Assembly: GCA_913058185.1 (NCBI GenBank) | Contig: CAJXQX010000032.1 | Coordinates: forward strand, 1 to 40,656 | DNA from: an uncultured Verrucomicrobiota bacterium | GTDB lineage: Bacteria > Verrucomicrobiota > Verrucomicrobiia > Opitutales > Opitutaceae | Direction of reading: 5' to 3' | DNA: 40,656 nt | Shown here: one piece after another, positions 5,758-15,801 of the stretch | Numbering within the stretch: the stretch's first letter is position 1 | Layout: each line of letters opens with the position of its first letter | Made by a program: the position numbers and the translations under genes | The notes under the pieces: model-generated | What the model was told of the DNA's origin: nothing | The model's input: only the letters and a program-made list of their open reading frames with translations | Database searches by the model: none

Positions 5758-6291
5758 ATGAGATCTTCGCTTCGTCAATCAGGGTGTGCCGCGGGAGCGA
5801 ACGCATCGCGGGGTTTTACCCTGATCGAACTACTTATCGTCATTGCGGTGATCGCGGTGTTGACCGCTATCACGCTGGGCATTTCCGGAGGCGCTCGCGA
5901 ACGCGCCGCCAACGATCGCGTCAAATCGGAGTTGGCTGTGCTCAGCACGGCTCTTGAACGCTATCGGGTGGTTTATGGGGCCTACCCGCAGGATTCCCAA
6001 AATCCGACGGCTTTGCTTCAATCATTGAGCGGTGAACTCACGCCCACCGGTGGGGTCGCCAATCGGGCGCCTTTTATTACTTTAGCGGGACTGATTCTGG
6101 ATGACTCCGAAACCGCCATCGTCGACCCTTGGGATCAACCCTATGTCTACGTGCCATTCAGCTCCGGGGTTCGTCGCGGATTTCGGCTCTACTCGATTGG
6201 CTTAGACGGCCTCGATCTACCGCCAACCACGTCGGGAGAATGTGACGAATCAGCTGACGGAAATTTGGACAACGTCTACGCCCATCGCTAA
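5758..6291 (+). CDS. GspG-like type II pseudopilin (first copy)
   Basis: This is a 177-residue prepilin-like protein of the type II secretion/type IV pilus family. After a 19-residue basic leader comes the prepilin peptidase site G19|FTLIELL, with the conserved Glu at mature position 5, then one hydrophobic helix (about 20-42). The C-terminal globular part resembles GspG: RVKSELAVLSTALERYRVVYGAYP, then DPWDQPYVYVPF and LYSIGLDG, the major-pseudopilin motif for a regular fibre subunit. It heads a run of seven same-strand genes, with the next start 11 bp downstream. No GspD, GspE, GspF or peptidase gene lies in the window, so assembly must use machinery encoded elsewhere. Confidence 0.88.
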   Translation: MRSSLRQSGCAAGANASRGFTLIELLIVIAVIAVLTAITLGISGGARERAANDRVKSELAVLSTALERYRVVYGAYPQDSQNPTALLQSLSGELTPTGGVANRAPFITLAGLILDDSETAIVDPWDQPYVYVPFSSGVRRGFRLYSIGLDGLDLPPTTSGECDESADGNLDNVYAHR

Positions 6292-6302
6292 GGTTCACCT
6301 TC

Positions 6303-6905
6303 ATGATCACCGCACGACGCACTCGAGCCTTCACGTTGATAGAGCTGCTGACGGTGATCGCCATCGTGGCAATCCTCAGCGCGATCATCATTCCCACCGT
6401 CGGTGGTGCTCGTAACTCAGCCAATCGTGCAGCGGCTAAAGCCCAATTTAATCAATGGGCTGCAGCGATGGAGTTGTATCGGCAGGAATACGGTTTTTAT
6501 CCCGATATAGCGCCAACCGGTCTCGTCGATCCGGACCGATTTTCCGCCGAATTGACGGGACAAACCTTGGCCGGAGTTTCGGTGCGGGGGAATTCCGCCT
6601 GGGGCAATACCAAGGGATTGAGTTTTTATGCGCTCGCGGCCGGTGATCTCGATGAAACCGGGAACGAACTGGTGGATGCTTTTGGAAATACCGAAATTGC
6701 GATGCGTCGTGATACCAACCGCGACGGGCGTATCAATGCATCTGACACCGGAAGCTGGGTGTCCGTCGATGGCGTGGAATCCGCGGGGCTTTCGCCGACG
6801 ACTTTACCGAAAGCTATTCCAACCACCGGCGTGCGGGCTGGAGTGGTGTTTTATTCGGCGGGCCGAGGGCGTGATGAAACCGATATGGTGCTGAGCTGGC
6901 AGTAG
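6303..6905 (+). CDS. GspG-like type II pseudopilin (second copy)
   Basis: This 200-residue protein has a short basic leader (MITARRTRA) and the cleavage motif A9|FTLIELLTVIAIVAILSAI. Alanine rather than glycine occupies the -1 position, which prepilin peptidases can accept. Glu is kept at mature position 5. The globular part again starts with a GspG-like helix (FNQWAAAMELYRQEYGFYP). It ends in a segment with an Asp/Asn-rich loop (RRDTNRDGRINASD) that could bind calcium, as GspG does; that is inference from composition. It is diverged from the copy just upstream, which suggests an old duplication giving two related fibre subunits. It is 11 bp after the first pilin gene and 8 bp before the next. 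Confidence 0.87.
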   Translation: MITARRTRAFTLIELLTVIAIVAILSAIIIPTVGGARNSANRAAAKAQFNQWAAAMELYRQEYGFYPDIAPTGLVDPDRFSAELTGQTLAGVSVRGNSAWGNTKGLSFYALAAGDLDETGNELVDAFGNTEIAMRRDTNRDGRINASDTGSWVSVDGVESAGLSPTTLPKAIPTTGVRAGVVFYSAGRGRDETDMVLSWQ

Positions 6906-6913
6906 TTTATTTG

Positions 6914-7522
6914 ATGAGCCCATCTCGTTCCTTCACTTCACGCGCCACTCGGGCCTTCACCCTGATCGAGATACTGGTCGTGATGGGCATCATGGCGGTG
7001 GTGGCAACGATCGTGGGTGTCGGATTGAGTCGGGGAGGGGAAGGCGCTGCTTTGACGGCCGGGCAATCACTGCTGGTGTCGCAACTCAATGCCGCGCGAG
7101 CCCAGGCGGCCTTAGGCGCATCACGATCCGCATTAGTGGTTGCCGCGGATGCCAGTGATCTCACCCGTGATCATCGCTTCTTGGTGGTGGCGATTGAGGC
7201 TGCGGGGATTTGGCGGGCAGTTAGTGACGGAACCACGTTGCCAAATAGCGTGCTGGTGCGCGGTCTCTCGGAAGGAAGCACTTTGCTGACCCAGACTTTG
7301 GCGGTGGCACTAGATCCGGGAGATACCACCACGACGTGTTCGGCAGTTGTTTTTGAGGCCGAAGGGCGTATCTCGACCGTTGGAGGCGGAGTGATCTGGT
7401 TGAGCGTGGGAATACGTAACGAAGACGGGTGGAGTTTTTCGCCCGATGCGCCCAGTCGCGGCATTTCCATGAGTCGTTACGGCGCGATCACCCCGCTGGA
7501 TGATTGGGAAGGCGTATTTTGA
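6914..7522 (+). CDS. GspH-like pseudopilin (candidate Verru_Chthon cassette protein D)
   Basis: This 202-residue protein has the N-terminal motif TRA|FTLIEILVVMGIMAVVATI: Ala at -1, Glu at +5, then one membrane helix. The body has the GspH/FimT type of layout, with small residues, then LLVSQLNAARAQAA, then beta strands. An adjacent TTG (6911) is also in frame, but the ATG at 6914 is preferred. Its position directly before I-, J- and K-like genes matches the minor-pseudopilin order H-I-J-K of type II systems and the four-gene Verru_Chthon cassette (A-D) described for Verrucomicrobia. Its stop overlaps the next start as TTGA (7519-7522), which suggests translational coupling. Confidence 0.85.
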   Translation: MSPSRSFTSRATRAFTLIEILVVMGIMAVVATIVGVGLSRGGEGAALTAGQSLLVSQLNAARAQAALGASRSALVVAADASDLTRDHRFLVVAIEAAGIWRAVSDGTTLPNSVLVRGLSEGSTLLTQTLAVALDPGDTTTTCSAVVFEAEGRISTVGGGVIWLSVGIRNEDGWSFSPDAPSRGISMSRYGAITPLDDWEGVF

Positions 7523-7980
7523 AATCACGCCGCGGTTTTTCGTTGGTGGAGGTGGTGGTGGCTGTGGGGGTGTTTGTGGCCGGCGTGGTCGCGGCGGTTG
7601 CGTTGCTTTCGCAAACGACCGACTCGGCCGGACAATGCCTGTCCGTGGCAGCAGCGGGTCGGGTGGCCCAATCGAGCGCGGTGCTGCTGCGACAGTTGCC
7701 TTGGGATGAGGTGGTCACGCGTCTGAATTCAGAAGACGAAATCTTCGCCACCCGGGATGGTGATCTCATCGGGTGGTTCGATGAAGTCGCCGAGGCAGAA
7801 GCCTATTTCGTAATGAGTCTTGCTCGGGTTGAAAATCTTTCACCGATTGGAAATGATGCGTCGGCAGCCTACCTGGCGTTGCGACTCGAGCTACGTTGGC
7901 CACTGCGACAAGACGGCGCCGGGCGAATCGCTCCGAAATTCCAAGAGAGTCTAATTCGGAATGTGGTGGTGAACCGATGA
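7519..7980 (+). CDS. GspI-like pseudopilin (candidate Verru_Chthon cassette protein B)
   Basis: This 153-residue minor pseudopilin has the N-terminus MKSRRG|FSLVEVVVAVGVFVAGVV: a short basic leader, Gly at -1 and Glu at +5. The SLVEV signature is typical of GspI. I chose the TTG at 7519 because it overlaps the preceding stop as TTGA and has a GGGAAGG ribosome-binding-like sequence 5 nt upstream (7507-7513). A TTG at 7504 is also in frame but lacks this support. GspI subunits normally form the core of a pilus-tip complex with GspJ and GspK-type partners, and genes of those two types follow directly. Its stop overlaps the next ATG as ATGA (7977-7980). Confidence 0.85.
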   Translation: MKSRRGFSLVEVVVAVGVFVAGVVAAVALLSQTTDSAGQCLSVAAAGRVAQSSAVLLRQLPWDEVVTRLNSEDEIFATRDGDLIGWFDEVAEAEAYFVMSLARVENLSPIGNDASAAYLALRLELRWPLRQDGAGRIAPKFQESLIRNVVVNR

Positions 7981-8678
7981 ATGATGCGCGCCGAGCATTT
8001 ACATTGGTTGAGTTACTGGTCGCGGTGGGAATCACCGCGGTTCTGGCCGCGGTGTTGTTAAGTCTGGTGACCTCGACTCTAACGCTCTGGGAGCGGTCAG
8101 CCAGCGCGCTCGCGATGGATAATCAGGCGACTCTTGTTCTTGATCGATTGGCTCGGGACTTGGAGTCGGCCGTGGTGCGGGAGAACCTGGGCGATACTTG
8201 GATCGAACATGCAGTTGGTGACCGTGGCACCACCCAACTTCGTCTATTCAGCCAACTCACCAACACCTCCGGCGAAGTAAATGATCCAGCGACGATTCGT
8301 GAAGTAACTTATCAACTCACCACTGCGGGTGAATCGGGAAGACTGTATCGTCTCGAAGGCACCGCGATCGCAGCCCTGACCAGCGGATACGCCTGGCAAG
8401 TCTGGCCGACGCAGCCAGCTGATGAGTTTTTGTTGAGCGAAGGAATGCGGCAATTAGATCTGAAATTCTATGTCGATCAGACGACAGAGATCACGTCTCC
8501 GAGTTTGACGAATTGGCCAGCGTTCGTGCGCGCAGAGTTGGTCTTGTTGTCGCCCGACGGCGTCGCGCGATTGAACGCAGTCGCGGCCGGGCAATCCGAT
8601 GAGCTGATCGATCAGATCATCGATCAAACCTCACGTCGCTTCGTGCAATGGATCGAGATGGGTGGTCACCCGTGGTGA
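7977..8678 (+). CDS. GspJ-like pseudopilin (candidate Verru_Chthon cassette protein C)
   Basis: This 233-residue protein has the N-terminus MNDARRA|FTLVELLVAVGITAVLAA, with Ala at -1, Glu at +5 and one hydrophobic helix. The region after the helix (LSLVTSTLTLWERSASALAM, then LVLDRLARDLESAV) is typical of GspJ/PulJ-type minor pseudopilins, which have a long helix followed by a beta-sandwich head. The ATG at 7977 overlaps the previous stop as ATGA. An upstream in-frame reading from 7896 would add 27 residues inside the previous gene and displace the pilin signal from the N-terminus, so it was rejected. The stop is coupled to the next gene as GTGA (8675-8678). Confidence 0.86.
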   Translation: MNDARRAFTLVELLVAVGITAVLAAVLLSLVTSTLTLWERSASALAMDNQATLVLDRLARDLESAVVRENLGDTWIEHAVGDRGTTQLRLFSQLTNTSGEVNDPATIREVTYQLTTAGESGRLYRLEGTAIAALTSGYAWQVWPTQPADEFLLSEGMRQLDLKFYVDQTTEITSPSLTNWPAFVRAELVLLSPDGVARLNAVAAGQSDELIDQIIDQTSRRFVQWIEMGGHPW

Positions 8679-11467
8679 GGCAGAGCGAAAAGGGATTGGC
8701 CCTGCTATTGGTGGTTTCACTGATGGCACTGGTGACGCTGCTAGTGGTCAGCCTAGCCGTCGTCACGCGAGTGGAGACTCAGGTGGGCGCCACGCGAGCA
8801 ACTCAAGATCAAGCGCGACAAAACGCGCAGCTGGCCGTGCAAGTCGCCCTCGGCCAATTGCAGGAACTCGCAGGACCGGACCGTCGGGTTACCGCGACCG
8901 CGGAAGCGACGGGAAGTACCAGCAATCGACATTGGACCGGCGTGTGGCGCAGCGATACTAACGGCACAGCCCCGCTCGCCTGGTTGGTCAGTGGTGAAGG
9001 GAGTGATCCCTCCAACGATGCAACCCCATCTCGGGGGCGAGTCGTGCTGGTAGGCGAATCGAACGGGTCGGAGGAAACGGAAGTGGTTGCGTCGCTCGAA
9101 GTGCTTGCCGAATCAGGAATCGCCCGGGGCGCTTTCGCCTATTTCATCGCTGACGAAGGGGTGAAAGCACGGCTGATGCCCTCAATGTCGACCGCAGCAT
9201 CGAGCGACATGCTCGAACAACGTCTTCCGCTTCTTGGGGGCACACAACCGGTTGGGTTCGCGAATGAAGTCGGGGTGGATCCCCTGAGCACCACGTTTCA
9301 AAGCCAATTGGAGGCGCTCTCAAGTCGGGAACAATTCCCGGCGTTGCTAAGTTCTGCTGATGACGAACCGACTCGGGAACGGTGGCACGATTATACCGCG
9401 TGGAGCCAGGGCCTGCTTGTCGATGTGAATCGAGGGGGCTTGAAGACCGACCTGACCGATTCCGGCGACACGGTGATTCCAGGTTTGAGTGCCTTCAGTG
9501 ACTTAATTACTCCCGATCGCACTGCCAGCCTCAGTCCGGTCTATCCCATTCGAGCCGCCAGTGGGTCATCAGGGGATTTGTATGATGGTATCCACCCGAT
9601 CATGACACAGCTGGGATTACAGTTCAGTGTGCACACGATTTCATCCAGCTCCCGAACACTTGAAACGCGGCTACGGTTCTTCGTGGAATTAGCCAATCCG
9701 TTCAGCTCGGCCCTGGAGTCCGAAGACTTACGGTTGGTCGTCAGCGGGATGCCCGACACGATTCAGATCGAATCGAGAACGCTCAACACCACGCGTGATC
9801 ACGGTGGCGCCACCGTGGATCTCGAGCCGCTCTACGCCACGCATACGGATGGGACGGGCGCACCCGCGATCGAGTTTGATTTGCCTTTCGAGGATGAGAC
9901 CTGGGCGCCCGGCCGGGTAGTCTCGTGGCGCCTGCAGTCAGGAAACACCATGAGCGAGGCCGCAAATCGCGAGATGGTATACGATGCAAGCTCTCGCACC
10001 AGTTATTGGCGGGAGCGACCGGGCGGAGGTCTTGACGGACCCGATTCATTGGTGAATTCGAGCGAGCTCAGATTTACTGGCACCGAGGACTGGCGCCTGC
10101 GGGTTGAGCTACAACGGAACAACGGCGAGGTGCTATTTTCCGCAACGCTTCCGGAGTTCTATCAAGTTGATACGGCGTGGCAGGATGCCAATTCCACGCT
10201 CCCTGATTTTGGGGTTCATGTTCAGCTCGTGGATCGAAACCTATCCCAAGATGCCGACGGTGCCTCAGACTGGATGATGGAGGATTTGCCCAGCGATCTG
10301 AGACGAGATGAGTTCGACGAAGTGTTCTGGTTGCCAACCGTAGACCTGGAAAGTGCGTCCTACAATACGTCTTTTTCGGCGCCAAATTCGGGAGTTGAGG
10401 CGCGCCAGCTTTTTAATCGTGACCCGGTCGAACGGACTTACCTCAGTTACTACCAACCGAGTTTCAATAGCGACATCGCGCTCTTCGAACTGCCTCGGCA
10501 AGGATGGCGTTCGGTGGGAGGATTGCAGCATCTCGCATTTGCCGATGCTCCAATCTACAATGTGGGGAATTCATGGAGCGAACGGAACGATTGGTTCGAT
10601 CGCTATTTCTTTTCGGACGAGCGATCGACCGATAGTGCTGATTTGGAGGATCTGGTGTCGGGAAACTTCAATTTCAATAGTGTGAATGCGTCAGCCTGGG
10701 AGGCGATTCTTAGAGGAATGGGAGTCGGAATCGGAGAGTATGGTTTCGCCTATGTAGAACACGTGGAGAACTCCGGAGAGATTGGAGGAGCTGGAGCAGC
10801 CTCGGTTTCGTTTCCCGTTGCTCGGTTCAGTCAATCGAGCGGAGAGATGTGGGAGCTGTCACCTGACCCCGAAAACTTCCAAGAGGTTTTGCGCACCTAT
10901 CGTCGAGGATTACGAGGACTGACCGAATCCCAAGTAAATGGTTTAGCGGTAGAAATTGCGAGCAACGTGCAGCGCCGCATTTCTGCCCAAGGGCCTTATC
11001 GTAGCGTGGAATCTTTCTTAGCGCTGGATGGGTTGTTCGGTGGTGATAATATTTTGGAATATTCGATCGCGGAATATGATGACTCGGTGGCTGCGAGTGA
11101 GCGGATTAATTGGGATCAATATTTCCCAGACTCACCGATGAAGATTGATACGGCAGCGCCGGCATTTATCACTTCGGCTGATTTGATGACAGCGCTTGCA
11201 CCCGTAGTGAACGTGCGATCGGACACCTTTGTGATTCGGGCTTTTGGTGAGAGCGTTGAACCGACTTTAGAGGCGAGTTATACCTCGTCGGAACCGACGG
11301 CCCGGGCTTGGCTGGAGGCAGTGGTGCAACGCTATCCGGAGGGCGTGGATGCATCGGACTTTGTTGATGGCACGAGTCGCGATTGGTCGCAGATGATTGC
11401 CGAACCCCAATGGGGCCGAAAGTTTCGCATCATTGCCTTACGCTGGTTGACGGAGGATGATCTATGA
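8675..11467 (+). CDS. Very large GspK-like pilus-tip protein (candidate Verru_Chthon cassette protein A)
   Basis: This 930-residue protein begins MRQSEKG|LALLLVVSLMAL, a pseudopilin-type leader and membrane helix in which Glu5 is replaced by a hydrophobic residue, as in GspK tip subunits. The next stretch (ARQNAQLAVQVALGQLQELA, then GPDRRVTA) matches my memory of the Verru_Chthon cassette protein A family. Normal GspK is about 330 residues, so the head domain here is nearly three times larger. Near residues 740-800 is a helical block (LTESQVNGLAVEIASNV, YRSVESFLALDGLF) that recalls the helix-hairpin part of GspK. The GTG at 8675 is chosen because it overlaps the previous stop; an in-frame ATG at 8648 would add nine residues. 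Its stop overlaps the next gene as ATGA. Confidence 0.83.
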   Translation: MRQSEKGLALLLVVSLMALVTLLVVSLAVVTRVETQVGATRATQDQARQNAQLAVQVALGQLQELAGPDRRVTATAEATGSTSNRHWTGVWRSDTNGTAPLAWLVSGEGSDPSNDATPSRGRVVLVGESNGSEETEVVASLEVLAESGIARGAFAYFIADEGVKARLMPSMSTAASSDMLEQRLPLLGGTQPVGFANEVGVDPLSTTFQSQLEALSSREQFPALLSSADDEPTRERWHDYTAWSQGLLVDVNRGGLKTDLTDSGDTVIPGLSAFSDLITPDRTASLSPVYPIRAASGSSGDLYDGIHPIMTQLGLQFSVHTISSSSRTLETRLRFFVELANPFSSALESEDLRLVVSGMPDTIQIESRTLNTTRDHGGATVDLEPLYATHTDGTGAPAIEFDLPFEDETWAPGRVVSWRLQSGNTMSEAANREMVYDASSRTSYWRERPGGGLDGPDSLVNSSELRFTGTEDWRLRVELQRNNGEVLFSATLPEFYQVDTAWQDANSTLPDFGVHVQLVDRNLSQDADGASDWMMEDLPSDLRRDEFDEVFWLPTVDLESASYNTSFSAPNSGVEARQLFNRDPVERTYLSYYQPSFNSDIALFELPRQGWRSVGGLQHLAFADAPIYNVGNSWSERNDWFDRYFFSDERSTDSADLEDLVSGNFNFNSVNASAWEAILRGMGVGIGEYGFAYVEHVENSGEIGGAGAASVSFPVARFSQSSGEMWELSPDPENFQEVLRTYRRGLRGLTESQVNGLAVEIASNVQRRISAQGPYRSVESFLALDGLFGGDNILEYSIAEYDDSVAASERINWDQYFPDSPMKIDTAAPAFITSADLMTALAPVVNVRSDTFVIRAFGESVEPTLEASYTSSEPTARAWLEAVVQRYPEGVDASDFVDGTSRDWSQMIAEPQWGRKFRIIALRWLTEDDL

Positions 11468-12195
11468 AGATGAAACGTTTGGTCTTAAGTTTGGCTCTTG
11501 GGGTGGTGTTGCCGTCGTCAATGCTGGTTGCTCAATCAGCAACTCCATCAACGCTTGAATTTGAATTCTCAATCATGGCTTGGGAGCGCATGCGGGATGT
11601 CGGATACGCTCAGTTAAAGGCTGAAGCGCGCAGTAAACCACGGCCGATTGCAGAGGACTTTGAGATCATCCCTATGCGGGTTTCTTCTCAGGGGAGGAGC
11701 GACCTGTATCACTACGTAGGACCAACGCCGGTTCGTTTGGTGGCTACTTCTAGCGAAGGTGAATCACTTCGAGCGACTCGGATGATCGGAGCCATCTCCG
11801 AACTGCGGATTCCGCAACGAGCGATGTTTTTGATTGGGCCGGCAGAGGAGGAATCGGTGAATATCAAATTACTCGATGATTCGCCTGCGGCCTTTCCGGG
11901 ACAGCACGTTCGGATTGTGAATTTGGCCGGTGAATTGGTTCAGGGCACACTCGACGGTCAGGCGTTTCGGGTGGATGCGACGCGGGCGGTTTTGCCCCCG
12001 AAACGGGTCAGCGAGAGTGTGCGCGTTGGGGTGGCTTATGAAAAACAGGGTCGCCCGATCATCATCTTTGATCAGTCGCTGCGGATTGGATCCGAAGAAC
12101 GCATCATGTTGGTTTTTTTACCCCCGTTTAGAGCCGGTGCCGATGTGCGCGTGCGGGTGGTTCGAGATCAGATATTTGTGCCTGCCGAACCGTAG
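11464..12195 (+). CDS. Exported protein of unknown function, last gene of the pseudopilin operon
   Basis: This 243-residue protein has an N-terminal signal peptide (MKMKRLVLSLALGVVLPSSM) with probable cleavage after about residue 24. The mature part is predicted all-beta. Motifs such as AMFLIGPAEEESVNIKLLDD and HVRIVNLAGELVQGTLDGQ look like beta-sandwich strands. No catalytic motif is evident. The ATG overlaps the stop of the large tip gene as ATGA, so it is very likely translated with it and works with the fibre, for example as a periplasmic or surface partner; that role is inference from position. It ends 6 bp before the convergent dehydratase gene. Confidence 0.75.
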   Translation: MKMKRLVLSLALGVVLPSSMLVAQSATPSTLEFEFSIMAWERMRDVGYAQLKAEARSKPRPIAEDFEIIPMRVSSQGRSDLYHYVGPTPVRLVATSSEGESLRATRMIGAISELRIPQRAMFLIGPAEEESVNIKLLDDSPAAFPGQHVRIVNLAGELVQGTLDGQAFRVDATRAVLPPKRVSESVRVGVAYEKQGRPIIIFDQSLRIGSEERIMLVFLPPFRAGADVRVRVVRDQIFVPAEP

Positions 12196-12201
12196 TCGAT
12201 T

Positions 12202-14877
12202 TTAGGTGGAAACACCCAACGGCCCTCGGGCGAATTGGAAGTCAACGAATCCCGTTTGGTTGGCGATCGGGGTGTGGCTTTCGTTCAAAGTATCTTGCAG
12301 TAGGGTTTTTATCTGCGCGTGGGTCGTTGCGGAATCGTGGCCATTGAGTATAGTATCGACGTCGCGGTGACTGCTCGCAGGGAGCACGGGGAATTCGGCG
12401 AGTTGCAGGACGGGGATGAGTGGATGTCCTTGTTGGGGAGTGTTTCCAACCAAACCAACAACGAGATGTGATCCGCAGGCGCCAAGACTGGTTAAGTTTT
12501 CGACCCAGTGGTCACTGTCAGTTTGAACCACATGCAGTCCGGGATGCTTGAGGGCTTCACCATTCGCCAGGGTCGCATGGGGCGTGAGGTCCTGGAGCAA
12601 CTCGTCTCGAAATATAGTGTTGGCCAGCAGGGGATCGCTTTCGGGGAGCAGAATGGAACCTCCCGCGTCGAGCACATCCGTGGTGAGTTGGCAGAGCGCC
12701 TTCGCCGTTGCGGCGCTAGCGACCGAAGCGGACAGCAGGGCGAGGCGGATTCCCGCGAGATCAAAACGGAGTTCATCCGAAGACTCGGAGTTGTGACGAT
12801 CGGTTTGGGAGAACCAGGATTCAACCTTGGTAATGCTCTGGTCGATACCTCCATCGAGCTGCACGCTAGCCCAGCCAAATCGATCGAGGGGCAATCCAGC
12901 CGTTTCAAAATAACGGCGCATTACGTCGTTCGGGATTTTTTCACAACCATGCTCCAGTAGCAGGGCAGCGGAGACATTGGGATGGGTAGCGTAGCCGTGA
13001 TAAGTGCGGCACAACGTCCGATACATCGTTTCACCGCCAAATCCGCAGCCTTCACTGTGGGGTAGCGCGACGAAACGAGAGAGGCCCAATTGGGCGGCGT
13101 GTGGTCCATCGTTCAGGCGATTTACGGCCATTCGAGCGATTTGCGAAGAACACATGCTCGTGGGCAAAACGAGACCGACGCGCTCAGTTGCGATCGGGTT
13201 TTCGGGAGCGTCGCGACTGGGAATTAAGGGTTGGCCAGATGGGACTTCGCGTGTGCGAAGCGCTTGGAGATTGCGGCCATCCTGCTGCTGCCAATTGCGC
13301 CAGAGTGATGACTGGGAGTGACCCGCGAGTTCGCCTTTGGAGCGTTGTCCTGACGCCGTGGCGATTAATAGATTCAATGATTCGTCCGTGAGCGACTCCA
13401 ACGATTCACCGTCGAGGTAACGGCCCGCATTGATGTCCATTTCGTTAATTAACAGCTGATGCCGTCGTGTGGTCGTCGTGATCTTCAGCGTGGGAACGAA
13501 AGGGAAGTTTGTGACTGAGCCATTGCCGGTGATGAAGACGATTAAGTTACAGCCGGCTCCCACCTGACCGCCAATGGCCTCAAGATCATTGCCGGGGCTA
13601 TCCATGAAATAATAACCGGGAGGGTTGAGCGGCTCGGCGTAGTCGATCACGTGGTCCAGCGGTGTGCGGGGATCCTTCTTTTGCACCGCACCGAGTGATT
13701 TGAGGGCAATGTTGTAGAGCCCACGAAACTTGTTACCGGCCGATGGGTTGGCCTCGGGGGTGACCCCGTGCCAGCTCATGCGCTCTTTAAAGTTGGCGAT
13801 ACAGTCGAGCAGGGCGTGCGCGACGGGAGCAGACTTGATATTGCGCATGAGGTGATCCTCCGCACCGACGATCTCGTCGGTTTCACATAAGACTCCAATA
13901 CCGCCGTGGCGCACGATCTCATGGGTCAGAGCGCCGGCCAGAGGATTACCCGAAATGCCGGAGAACGCGTCCGAGCCACCGCATTGCAGGGCTATGCGAA
14001 GTTCGCTCAAGGGTTCGGCGCTGCGCGTGAGGGCCGCGACGTTGGGAAGCCACTGGCGCACGGTTTCTTCACCGGTGGCCAACGCGGCCGCCAATCCGTG
14101 GTCGATACTCAGAAACTGGTGCGTCACCTCATCGAGGGGGTAGCCGTTATCACGCATGAAGGTTTCCAGCCGAGCGTTGGTGATGGCCTCTTCGCCATAA
14201 TCCACGGCCAGCACCGCACCGACATTGGGGTGGATCATGAATCCCGCCAGAGCCCGCAGAATCTCCGCGGCGTTGTTCGGTTCTTCCGCCTCACCGCCTT
14301 CGGTGTGAGCGATAGCGACGACGCCATCGATGCCAGGGAATAATTTGGCGGTCGATTGCAGGCGGGCGGTGAGTTGACGCGCGAAACTCGCGGTTCGCGA
14401 CGTAGTGCCCAAAATCACGATCGTATTGCGGGTGCCCACGCCGCGGTTTCTGGATCGACGAAAGCCTTGGAACGTCCGGCGTTCTGTCGCGGGAGAAATC
14501 GTAGCAGGAGCGGGAAGCTCGGCCTCGTTTAGTTCGAAAGGCACGAGGTGGTCGGCGAAATTGGCCGTGTCCGGCAAGGTGATGGCTCTCTGTCGCACCC
14601 GCAGGGCCTGTAAGGTTGAGTCATTGCAGACAGTGTCCCCCGGAGCGATGGACCGGGTGGCGTGACCAAAGGGGAGTTTCCAAGAATTTAAGGCGTCGCC
14701 CGTAGCAATCGATTGAACCGCGAAGCGATGTCCTTCGAGAACCGTGTGAGAAATGGTCGCGAGCCCTTCAGGCAACAGCACGGACGTGCCCGGCTGAATT
14801 TGGCGGATAGCAATGGCTACATTGTCGCCCGGGGCAGGGAGGCGACCAATATCATGCAACGTGAGGGGATCCGGCAT
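12202..14877 (-). CDS. Double-length UxaA/GarD-family (altronate/galactarate dehydratase-like) protein, 891 aa
   Basis: Family members dehydrate sugar acids (altronate, galactarate) using a bound metal and are about 500 residues long. Here 891 residues hold an N-terminal SAF domain (about 15-90) and two copies of the enzyme core. Copy 1: middle domain 140-280 (GVGTRNTIVILGTTSR, FPGIDGVVAIAHTEGG, IHPNVGAVLAVDYGEE) and C-terminal domain 290-500 (LQCGGSDAFSG, ANPSAGNKFRGL, DINAGRYLDG). Copy 2: middle domain 565-690 (LPTSMCSSQIAR, ALPHSEGCGFGG, THPNVSAALLLEHGCE) and a weaker C-terminal domain 705-850. Family cysteines are missing in copy 1's middle domain but present in copy 2's. The QCGGSD motif is present only in copy 1. 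The substrate is unknown, and no uronate pathway gene is adjacent. Confidence 0.88.
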   Translation of the reverse strand: MPDPLTLHDIGRLPAPGDNVAIAIRQIQPGTSVLLPEGLATISHTVLEGHRFAVQSIATGDALNSWKLPFGHATRSIAPGDTVCNDSTLQALRVRQRAITLPDTANFADHLVPFELNEAELPAPATISPATERRTFQGFRRSRNRGVGTRNTIVILGTTSRTASFARQLTARLQSTAKLFPGIDGVVAIAHTEGGEAEEPNNAAEILRALAGFMIHPNVGAVLAVDYGEEAITNARLETFMRDNGYPLDEVTHQFLSIDHGLAAALATGEETVRQWLPNVAALTRSAEPLSELRIALQCGGSDAFSGISGNPLAGALTHEIVRHGGIGVLCETDEIVGAEDHLMRNIKSAPVAHALLDCIANFKERMSWHGVTPEANPSAGNKFRGLYNIALKSLGAVQKKDPRTPLDHVIDYAEPLNPPGYYFMDSPGNDLEAIGGQVGAGCNLIVFITGNGSVTNFPFVPTLKITTTTRRHQLLINEMDINAGRYLDGESLESLTDESLNLLIATASGQRSKGELAGHSQSSLWRNWQQQDGRNLQALRTREVPSGQPLIPSRDAPENPIATERVGLVLPTSMCSSQIARMAVNRLNDGPHAAQLGLSRFVALPHSEGCGFGGETMYRTLCRTYHGYATHPNVSAALLLEHGCEKIPNDVMRRYFETAGLPLDRFGWASVQLDGGIDQSITKVESWFSQTDRHNSESSDELRFDLAGIRLALLSASVASAATAKALCQLTTDVLDAGGSILLPESDPLLANTIFRDELLQDLTPHATLANGEALKHPGLHVVQTDSDHWVENLTSLGACGSHLVVGLVGNTPQQGHPLIPVLQLAEFPVLPASSHRDVDTILNGHDSATTHAQIKTLLQDTLNESHTPIANQTGFVDFQFARGPLGVST

Positions 14878-14972: not shown

Positions 14973-15047
14973 TGGTGCCAGAGGGCGGATTTGAACCGCC
15001 GACCAACGGCTTATGAGTCCGCGGCTCTACCACTGAGCTACTCTGGC
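14973..15047 (-). tRNA. tRNA with CAU anticodon (elongator Met most likely; Ile2 possible)
   Basis: The 75 nt include an encoded CCA end (14973-14975). The acceptor stem GCCAGAG pairs with CTCTGGC. The D-arm is GCTC-AGTGGTA-GAGC, the anticodon loop is CTCATAA (anticodon CAU), and the T-arm is GGCGG-TTCAAAT-CCGCC. The last pair of the anticodon stem (31-39) is A.G rather than Watson-Crick, and the first is G.U. The variable region TGGTC is like that of E. coli tRNA-Ile2, whose CAU is modified to lysidine, so identity between Met and Ile2 is not settled by sequence alone. It lies between vapC and the dehydratase gene on the same strand. Confidence 0.9.
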
Positions 15048-15117: not shown

Positions 15118-15531
15118 TCAGGTTCCCCAAGGATTGACCAATGAAACGCCCGTCGCGGAAAAATCACGTAAATTACGAGTAGCCAAAGTGAGTTTGTGTT
15201 CTCGCACGGTCGCAGCGATCAGAGCGTATTCGATGTGGAGTTGGAGTCCTTGGGCGGCGTGTCCGGCTCGCATTTCGGCAGCGGTGGAAGCGATGGCAGT
15301 TGAGATCGGAAGAATTTGAGGAGCGAATTTTTGCTCAATTTCTCCGACCCATTTTAGTAATCGTTCACGTTTTTTGGATAATTTTACCAGATGAGCTCCG
15401 TGCCAAAGTTCATGGAGAGTTATGACGGAAAGAAAACTGTGCGGAAGTGAGGCGCAATATCGGATTACATTAAGATCCGGACGAGGACGGGCCAATTCGC
15501 TGACTACATTTGTGTCGAGGAGAATGGACAT
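15118..15531 (-). CDS. vapC: VapC/FitB-type PIN-domain toxin, with one altered acidic site
   Basis: PIN-domain toxins are metal-dependent RNases held inactive by a partner antitoxin. This 137-residue protein starts MSILLDTNVVSEL with the first acidic residue (D7). It has the conserved Glu in VITLHELWHG and ends with TLATRNLRDF and a NPWGT tail like FitB. The usual Asp before the ALIAAT helix is Tyr here (HIEYALIAAT), with a Glu just before it, so one metal ligand is lost or shifted by one position. It starts at ATG 15529-15531, 12 bp after the antitoxin stop, in normal antitoxin-toxin order. It may be an active variant or a toxin losing activity. Confidence 0.88.
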   Translation of the reverse strand: MSILLDTNVVSELARPRPDLNVIRYCASLPHSFLSVITLHELWHGAHLVKLSKKRERLLKWVGEIEQKFAPQILPISTAIASTAAEMRAGHAAQGLQLHIEYALIAATVREHKLTLATRNLRDFSATGVSLVNPWGT

Positions 15532-15543
15532 CGAACGGTGGAC

Positions 15544-15801
15544 TTAGTCCTCTGAGAATTGAATTCCCGTTCGCGACGAGACACCCCGATCGGGGATCTC
15601 CAGATCAACACGGGGCGACTCTTCGACGAGGAATTTACCCAAGGGGGTCGATGGTGCTGTTCGTGCGTTCCACTCCTCTTGGGAAACGACCACGCAGGGA
15701 TTGCGGGCACCGATTATTTGCGGGCCCCGTTTACGTGCTTGATTGAGAACCTCAGATAATCGGCTCTTTGCATCGCTTACTTTCCACACAGTCTGATCCA
15801 T
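15544..15801 (-). CDS. Phd/YefM-type antitoxin of the VapC pair
   Basis: This is an 85-residue small protein. The N-terminal half (MDQTVWKVSDAKSRLSEVLN) has the Phd/YefM DNA-binding fold signature, and GARNPCVVVSQEEW is the usual strand region. The C-terminal third (STPLGKFLVEESPRVDLEIP) would be the flexible part that wraps the toxin; FLVEESPRVDLE is typical of Phd-type partners of FitB/VapC toxins. Antitoxins of this kind neutralise the toxin and repress their own operon. It is directly upstream of vapC. A near-consensus promoter lies just before the ATG (15810-15838) and an imperfect inverted repeat overlaps its -10 element. Confidence 0.87.
   Translation of the reverse strand: MDQTVWKVSDAKSRLSEVLNQARKRGPQIIGARNPCVVVSQEEWNARTAPSTPLGKFLVEESPRVDLEIPDRGVSSRTGIQFSED

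Follow-up and report, generated by a model that had tools for sequence, protein, structure and literature searches.

The window analysed here is a 40,656-nucleotide stretch of DNA (contig CAJXQX010000032.1 of assembly GCA_913058185.1) from an uncultured Verrucomicrobiota bacterium of the family Opitutaceae. On its minus strand, at positions 12202-14877, lies a gene for a double-length UxaA/GarD-type protein of 891 amino acids, whose frame is free of internal stops. The chain is composed of a single SAF domain and then two UxaA/GarD cores joined by a linker. The original prediction, made from the sequence alone, had given the correct coordinates and this same order of one SAF domain and two enzyme cores, which is borne out by Pfam, sequence and fold matches. 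Pfam places GD_AH_second and then GD_AH_C on the protein, two stretches each (E 2.7e-42 and 2.5e-83). The Pfam match to SAF itself scores 14.4 bits, under the cut-off of 21; the assignment of residues 1-95 to this domain is supported by both sequence (E 7.2e-07) and fold (Z 13.4) matches to 3k3s_A, a fragment of the Shigella altronate hydrolase. Among 57 near-full-length double-length proteins (doubles), described below, H50 of the SAF motif is found in 56 and R51 in all. The genome of the window is 99.18% complete and its one PF20629 match is the double itself. No second member of this family that could complement the double, by supplying the residues missing from either copy, was seen in it. 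The features of the gene are as follows.

12202-14877, minus strand: whole gene of the double-length UxaA/GarD-type protein, 891 amino acids (Pfam; sole PF20629 match of the genome)
14593-14877, minus strand: SAF domain, residues 1-95, one copy, with a G49-H50-R51 motif (sequence and fold)
14026-14487, minus strand: copy 1 middle domain (GD_AH_second), residues ~131-284, cysteine triad lost (Pfam and alignment)
14425-14430, minus strand: R150-N151 of the RVGTRN motif, in copy 1 only (57/57 doubles)
14395-14397, minus strand: R161, at the column of UxaA C132 (cysteine in 0/57 doubles)
14293-14295, minus strand: G195, at the column of UxaA C166 (cysteine in 0/57 doubles)
14191-14193, minus strand: E229, at the column of UxaA C199 (cysteine in 0/57 doubles)
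13288-14025, minus strand: copy 1 C-terminal domain (GD_AH_C), residues ~285-530, pocket motifs intact (81/246 columns at least 98% conserved)
13981-13983, minus strand: C299 of QCGGSD, the fourth conserved cysteine (57/57 doubles; codon re-read)
13729-13749, minus strand: NPSAGNK loop, residues 377-383, with no counterpart in copy 2 (alignment; codons re-read)
12778-13191, minus strand: copy 2 middle domain, residues ~563-700, cysteine triad intact (alignment)
13150-13152, minus strand: C576 of the triad (57/57 doubles; codon re-read)
13045-13047, minus strand: C611 of the triad (57/57 doubles; codon re-read)
12943-12945, minus strand: C645 of the triad (57/57 doubles; codon re-read)
12205-12762, minus strand: copy 2 C-terminal domain, residues ~706-891, shortened, pocket motifs lost, S716 at the column of the fourth cysteine (11/186 columns at least 98% conserved)

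The invariant cysteines of single-length relatives (singles) correspond in our alignment to C132, C166 and C199 in the middle domain of E. coli UxaA and to C264 in its C-terminal domain. At these four columns copy 1 of the double has R161, G195, E229 and then C299, and it keeps the NPSAGNK loop; copy 2 has C576, C611, C645 and then S716, and the NPSPGNK block is deleted. The prediction that copy 1 had lost its middle cysteines but kept QCGGSD and ANPSAGNK, and that copy 2 had kept its middle cysteines but lost QCGGSD, was thus accurate for both halves. A scan of genome contigs gave 45 loci with relatives, found in Opitutae and other Verrucomicrobiota, Caldilineaceae, Gemmatimonadota, Latescibacterota, Poribacteria and Trueperaceae. 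The 39 loci spanning at least query residues 12-875, together with the window's protein, all have the split (40/40). Six incomplete loci were left out of the count; five of them agree at the columns they cover, and the sixth (L046) is a fragment of 152 amino acids. With 15 further doubles and two plasmid-borne ones, from Rubrobacter indicoceani and Pantoea soli, the set grew to 57 doubles from eight phyla, with pairwise identities of 36% to 98% and 21 clusters at 60% identity.

In every one of the 57, copy 1 is without cysteine at the three middle columns and has C299, while copy 2 has the triad and never a cysteine at the fourth column. All of these proteins therefore contain exactly one full set of four cysteines, divided three (copy 2) plus one (copy 1). 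Homologues had been expected to share the split, as they do, and the case that would have spoken against it, both copies keeping or losing the four cysteines alike, occurs in 0/57. Stray cysteines are found elsewhere in 19 of the 57 copy 1 middle domains and in 42 of the copy 2 C-terminal domains, with at most 5/57 and 16/57, respectively, in any one column. The cysteine split is real and not due to chance, and within this sample it is without exception.

Single-length enzymes served as controls. All four cysteines lie in one core in 34/34 SAF-bearing singles, a set composed of E. coli UxaA and GarD, 30 enzymes found in genomes belonging to the window's class, plus L143 and L144 from another phylum. 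Singles without SAF in the chain have all four in 11 of 13 cases, the other two being L089 and L097, which lack the triad. Since the set is divided in the doubles and the triad is missing in 2/47 singles, a full set of four cysteines per core is not universal in the superfamily and hence not decisive for membership. The column of UxaA Arg416 (TGRGT), an arginine that we ourselves chose as the UxaA marker, holds arginine in 34/34 SAF-bearing singles and, in the 57 doubles, asparagine (55) or serine (2). The column of UxaA Gly350 holds glycine in 47/47 singles and arginine (Arg385) in 57/57 doubles. On the alignment, these two changes could reflect a shifted carboxylate contact in the doubles. 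A glutamine replaces the TGRGT arginine in L089 and L097, which are possibly sulfolactate sulfo-lyase-like.

Other conserved positions are also unevenly shared. As a reference we took the 87 columns (12 in SAF, 75 in the core) in which at least 94% of 32 singles agree. Thirty of the 75 core columns are kept in at least 36/40 copies 1 and at most 4/40 copies 2, including the Arg and Asn of RVGTRN, the Cys, Ser and Asp of CGGSD, NPxxGN, and UxaA Lys358 and Lys428. The opposite pattern is found in four core columns, namely the three triad cysteines and UxaA Gly421, and 10/75 are kept in both copies. R150 and N151 of RVGTRN are present in copy 1 of 57/57 doubles; in copy 2 the arginine is found in 1/40 and the asparagine in 0/40. 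The copy 1 middle domain retains a conserved HTEG loop, with Asp226 in 56/57, and to judge from such positions it is constrained despite the loss of its triad and not in general decay. By the same measure copy 2 adds little besides the cysteine triad, and SAF, RVGTRN and the substrate pocket belong to copy 1. The original interpretation is thus supported in part. Of the complementary halves that it proposed, the division of the cysteines stands, and the roles are more lopsided than had been thought, with a site made up of nearly all of copy 1 plus the triad of copy 2. That triad and pocket are kept in different copies argues against a working site built from both domains of one copy.

A role for these cysteines has been proposed in related enzymes. 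The available excerpts of PMC6336799 state that Cys 134, 173, 208 and 276 of D-arabinonate dehydratase are conserved across the UxaA/GarD superfamily, sulfolactate sulfo-lyase excepted, and suggest that the four are ligands of a ferric iron if the enzyme is of the rubredoxin type. A figure legend of the same paper mentions effects of Cys-to-Ser changes on activity. We matched the UxaA cysteines to this numbering by their order, and the correspondence is thus a presumed one.

The whole chain was modelled with AlphaFold2 from a 41-row alignment (predicted local distance difference test, pLDDT, 84.8; predicted template modelling score, pTM, 0.86). Such a pTM suggests that the two cores are confidently placed relative to each other and appears too high for loosely tethered halves. 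Over residues 8-531 the model superposes on a single chain of 6u7l with a Z of 44.1 (438 residues, 2.8 Å), and Foldseek agrees (E 5.4e-33); among the structure matches, 6u7l was the only full-length structure of the family. Copy 1 therefore has the ordinary within-chain arrangement. GarD is a dimer, and by analogy the doubles could themselves pair as a domain-swapped homodimer, with the composite site formed between two long chains and not within one. We consider this improbable, since the confident single-chain model suggests that the cores pack within one chain.

The simplest account of the pattern is a composite site in a fused pseudo-dimer, and we think it likely that this protein of the UxaA/GarD superfamily is a fused pseudo-homodimer that has a single composite active site. 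The working site would be formed by the copy 1 C-terminal domain, SAF and RVGTRN set against the copy 2 middle domain, whose three cysteines would hold the iron centre. The opposite pair, the copy 1 middle domain and the copy 2 C-terminal domain, would be dead and serve as scaffold. If the working site joins the C-terminal domain of copy 1 to the middle domain of copy 2, the equivalent site of an ordinary enzyme is expected to lie between two chains. The ancestral homodimer would accordingly have had trans sites, each using the cysteine triad of the neighbouring subunit, and because of this arrangement one of the two sites could have been dropped after fusion without rearrangement.

The history of the doubles was examined with a tree of 77 rows, drawn from 24 of 55 doubles, 14 of 32 SAF-bearing singles and 15 further singles (among them L143 and L144, also with SAF); it was set up with the aim of excluding the four cysteine columns. 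Copy 1 forms one clade (support 97/98), as does copy 2 (100/100), and copy 1 of the doubles stands apart from the triad-less singles. Going by this tree, one old duplication or fusion followed by spread would fit. The further claim of the original prediction, that a single chain replaces a homodimer, fits the pTM of the model, the match of copy 1 to one 6u7l chain and the single clade per copy.

Doubles are patchily distributed: within the window's genus, two single-contig genomes gave no PF20629 match. A copy 2 profile, built from 26 of 39 listed rows, matched 6/223 genomes of the order at E 1e-20, and at E 1e-15 it matched 6/350 genomes of the phylum of the Caldilineaceae genome and 4/337 of the window's phylum; a small trial gave 1/6. 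Stand-alone copies 2, which would represent a two-gene intermediate, were sought with this profile; the strong matches are all in frames of at least 885 amino acids, while weak copies may escape, as no more than 6-9 of the first-look candidates were scored in many genomes. The only two matches in shorter frames, G525 and G802 (~61 bits), turned out to be single-length enzymes with all four cysteines. One Caldilineaceae genome (G465, the source of locus L035) has two different doubles, in frames of 943 and 952 amino acids, and one single. The plasmid doubles of R. indicoceani and P. soli are from cultured species and are annotated only as 'UxaA family hydrolase'. In the phage collection seven records matched, none with one place covering 80% of the query.

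Several observations weigh against a composite site within a fused pseudo-dimer. The Gly421 column, kept in copy 2 only, sits in the degenerate C-terminal domain of that copy. The model is of low confidence at three pocket loops (~191-200, 371-390 and 610-614). A separate fold of residues 285-704, aimed at the packing of the copy 1 C-terminal domain with the copy 2 middle domain and run without an alignment, reached a pLDDT of 36.2 and a pTM of 0.26 and carries no weight either way. The copy 2 branches of the tree are long and the tree program warned that long branches meet, which makes the position of copy 2 relative to singles unsure. The excerpts of PMC6336799 also describe an electron paramagnetic resonance signal near g 2, likened to [3Fe-4S], so that the centre may be something other than a single iron held by four cysteines. 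Lastly, the triad-less singles L089 and L097 keep the fourth cysteine and pocket residues. The fourth cysteine can thus play a part where the triad is missing, and a pocket may be able to work in the absence of those three residues, which speaks against the view that every family member has a simple four-ligand iron site.

These two singles, along with the exemption of sulfolactate sulfo-lyase from the cysteine conservation (in the excerpts of PMC6336799), keep alive a reading with two separate half-functions. According to it, copy 1 works alone without a triad and the copy 2 middle domain binds a metal or an Fe-S cluster in a structural or regulatory role, with no shared pocket. We regard this as unlikely, somewhat less so than a homodimer of doubles. 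The copy 2 triad is present in 57/57 although the C-terminal pocket of that copy is gone, none of the genomes searched with the copy 2 profile showed a copy 2 on its own, and the tree puts copy 1 of the doubles away from the triad-less singles.

With respect to function, the double is most likely an iron-dependent dehydratase of a sugar acid, as a prediction. The substrate class is probably a sugar acid, a suggestion that comes from patchy gene neighbourhoods. In L009 the neighbours include an aldo/keto reductase, a dihydrodipicolinate synthase (DHDPS)-type aldolase, a major facilitator superfamily (MFS) transporter and an enolase-family protein; in L010, a DHDPS; and in L027, an aldo/keto reductase, an amidohydrolase and a mannitol dehydrogenase. 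The Caldilineaceae group has MFS and PfkB genes in L035, and the same clusters recur in 13 and 11 loci. The P. soli double is accompanied by a FAH-family protein, a 2-keto-3-deoxygluconate permease and a GntR regulator. The Rubrobacter double lies between two Nramp metal transporters and beside a GntR regulator, with a four-carbon acid sugar kinase/PdxA pair ~6 kb away. Neighbours in the remaining scanned loci are unrelated or ambiguous.

No sugar genes were found among the scanned neighbours of the window's own double. This, together with the two single-contig genomes of the same genus without a PF20629 match, would suit a decaying or non-catalytic pseudo-enzyme, or a fusion created in assembly. 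Either reading is very improbable, given that the long frame recurs in 57 sequences of eight phyla, two of them on plasmids of cultured species, and that the copy 1 C-terminal domain is conserved.

Other genes near the doubles were recorded as well. In the window a tRNA-Met gene (14973-15047, minus strand) lies ~95 bp upstream of the double on the same strand, and this order is shared by the closest relative, L002 (tRNA-Met at 151-225, match from 451). Next to the tRNA, the stretch 15118-15801 (minus strand) holds a gene for a PIN-domain protein and, upstream of this gene, a Phd/YefM-like antitoxin frame; the pair is a probable toxin-antitoxin system, the antitoxin match being just below the Pfam cut-off. 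A run of plus-strand genes at 5758-12195 abuts the double, at least two of them with prepilin N-terminal methylation motifs (one like G of the type II secretion system), and for six genes of this run L002 has relatives arranged in the same order (clusters 26-31). In 4/27 scanned loci (L005, L008, L012 and L021) a transfer-messenger RNA gene is found at a distance of 0.5 to 4 kb from the double. In both scanned Caldilineaceae loci a tRNA-SeC gene lies ~3 kb from the double (L030, 2877-2974; L035, 2832-2929), and in L035 a conserved gene of ~436 amino acids without a Pfam match lies beside it. PhyH-family genes are found near the doubles of L035 (1939-2817; Caldilineaceae) and L146 (9747-10706), the latter from an unrelated genome of the Verrucomicrobiota group.

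The split of the four cysteines, being natural and conserved, predicts a site that crosses the dimer interface and, if this is true, ordinary UxaA/GarD enzymes borrow the cysteine triad from the neighbouring subunit. We put forward, tentatively and at slightly less than an even chance, that the doubles are a natural dissection of the UxaA/GarD site (SAF, RVGTRN and C-terminal domain from chain A, triad from chain B), that ordinary enzymes are obligate dimers with trans iron sites, and that the doubles, in which Asn or Ser replaces Arg416 and Arg replaces Gly350, make up a new subfamily acting on a different substrate. They would offer a clean case, in at least eight phyla, of homodimer fusion in which one of two trans sites may have been retained. 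In the excerpts available, PMC6336799 leaves the nature of the iron open.

The double-length form is absent from the titles and abstract beginnings among the matches listed in the open-licence literature, and the available excerpts of PMC6336799, PMC12632266, PMC11775122, PMC11199699 and PMC13406643 make no mention of a double-length member. On fused pseudo-dimers, the matches listed contain nothing specific to the UxaA/GarD family.

Compared with known systems, the double has the domain order, the 6u7l fold and the SAF domain of the superfamily (PF04295 and PF20629). It resembles E. coli GarD (6u7l) in the order of SAF, second and C-terminal domains, in the fold of copy 1 and in the pocket motifs. 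GarD differs in being single-length with four cysteines in one copy, whereas the double has two cores, one SAF and a split set, and Asn452 where GarD has an arginine. The galactarate dehydratase equivalog TIGR03248 gives 195.3 bits against a cut-off of 730.85 (Rubrobacter 165.2, Pantoea 181.4). Superfamily and four conserved cysteines are shared with UxaA and with the D-arabinonate dehydratase of PMC6336799 (as excerpted), and sugar-acid genes lie beside some doubles; these enzymes are single-length with an undivided cysteine set, and the UxaA marker arginine is replaced in all 57 doubles, as is Gly350. The sulfolactate sulfo-lyase SuyAB is like copy 1, which lacks the triad, in standing outside the cysteine conservation, and according to the same excerpts it is heteromeric, whereas the double is one chain with the full cysteine set. 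Fused pseudo-dimers that retain one of two sites are a known general class. The double would share with this class a homodimer that was duplicated and fused with the loss of one site, and is unlike it in that the residues of the surviving site are spread over both copies, with the cysteines divided three plus one.

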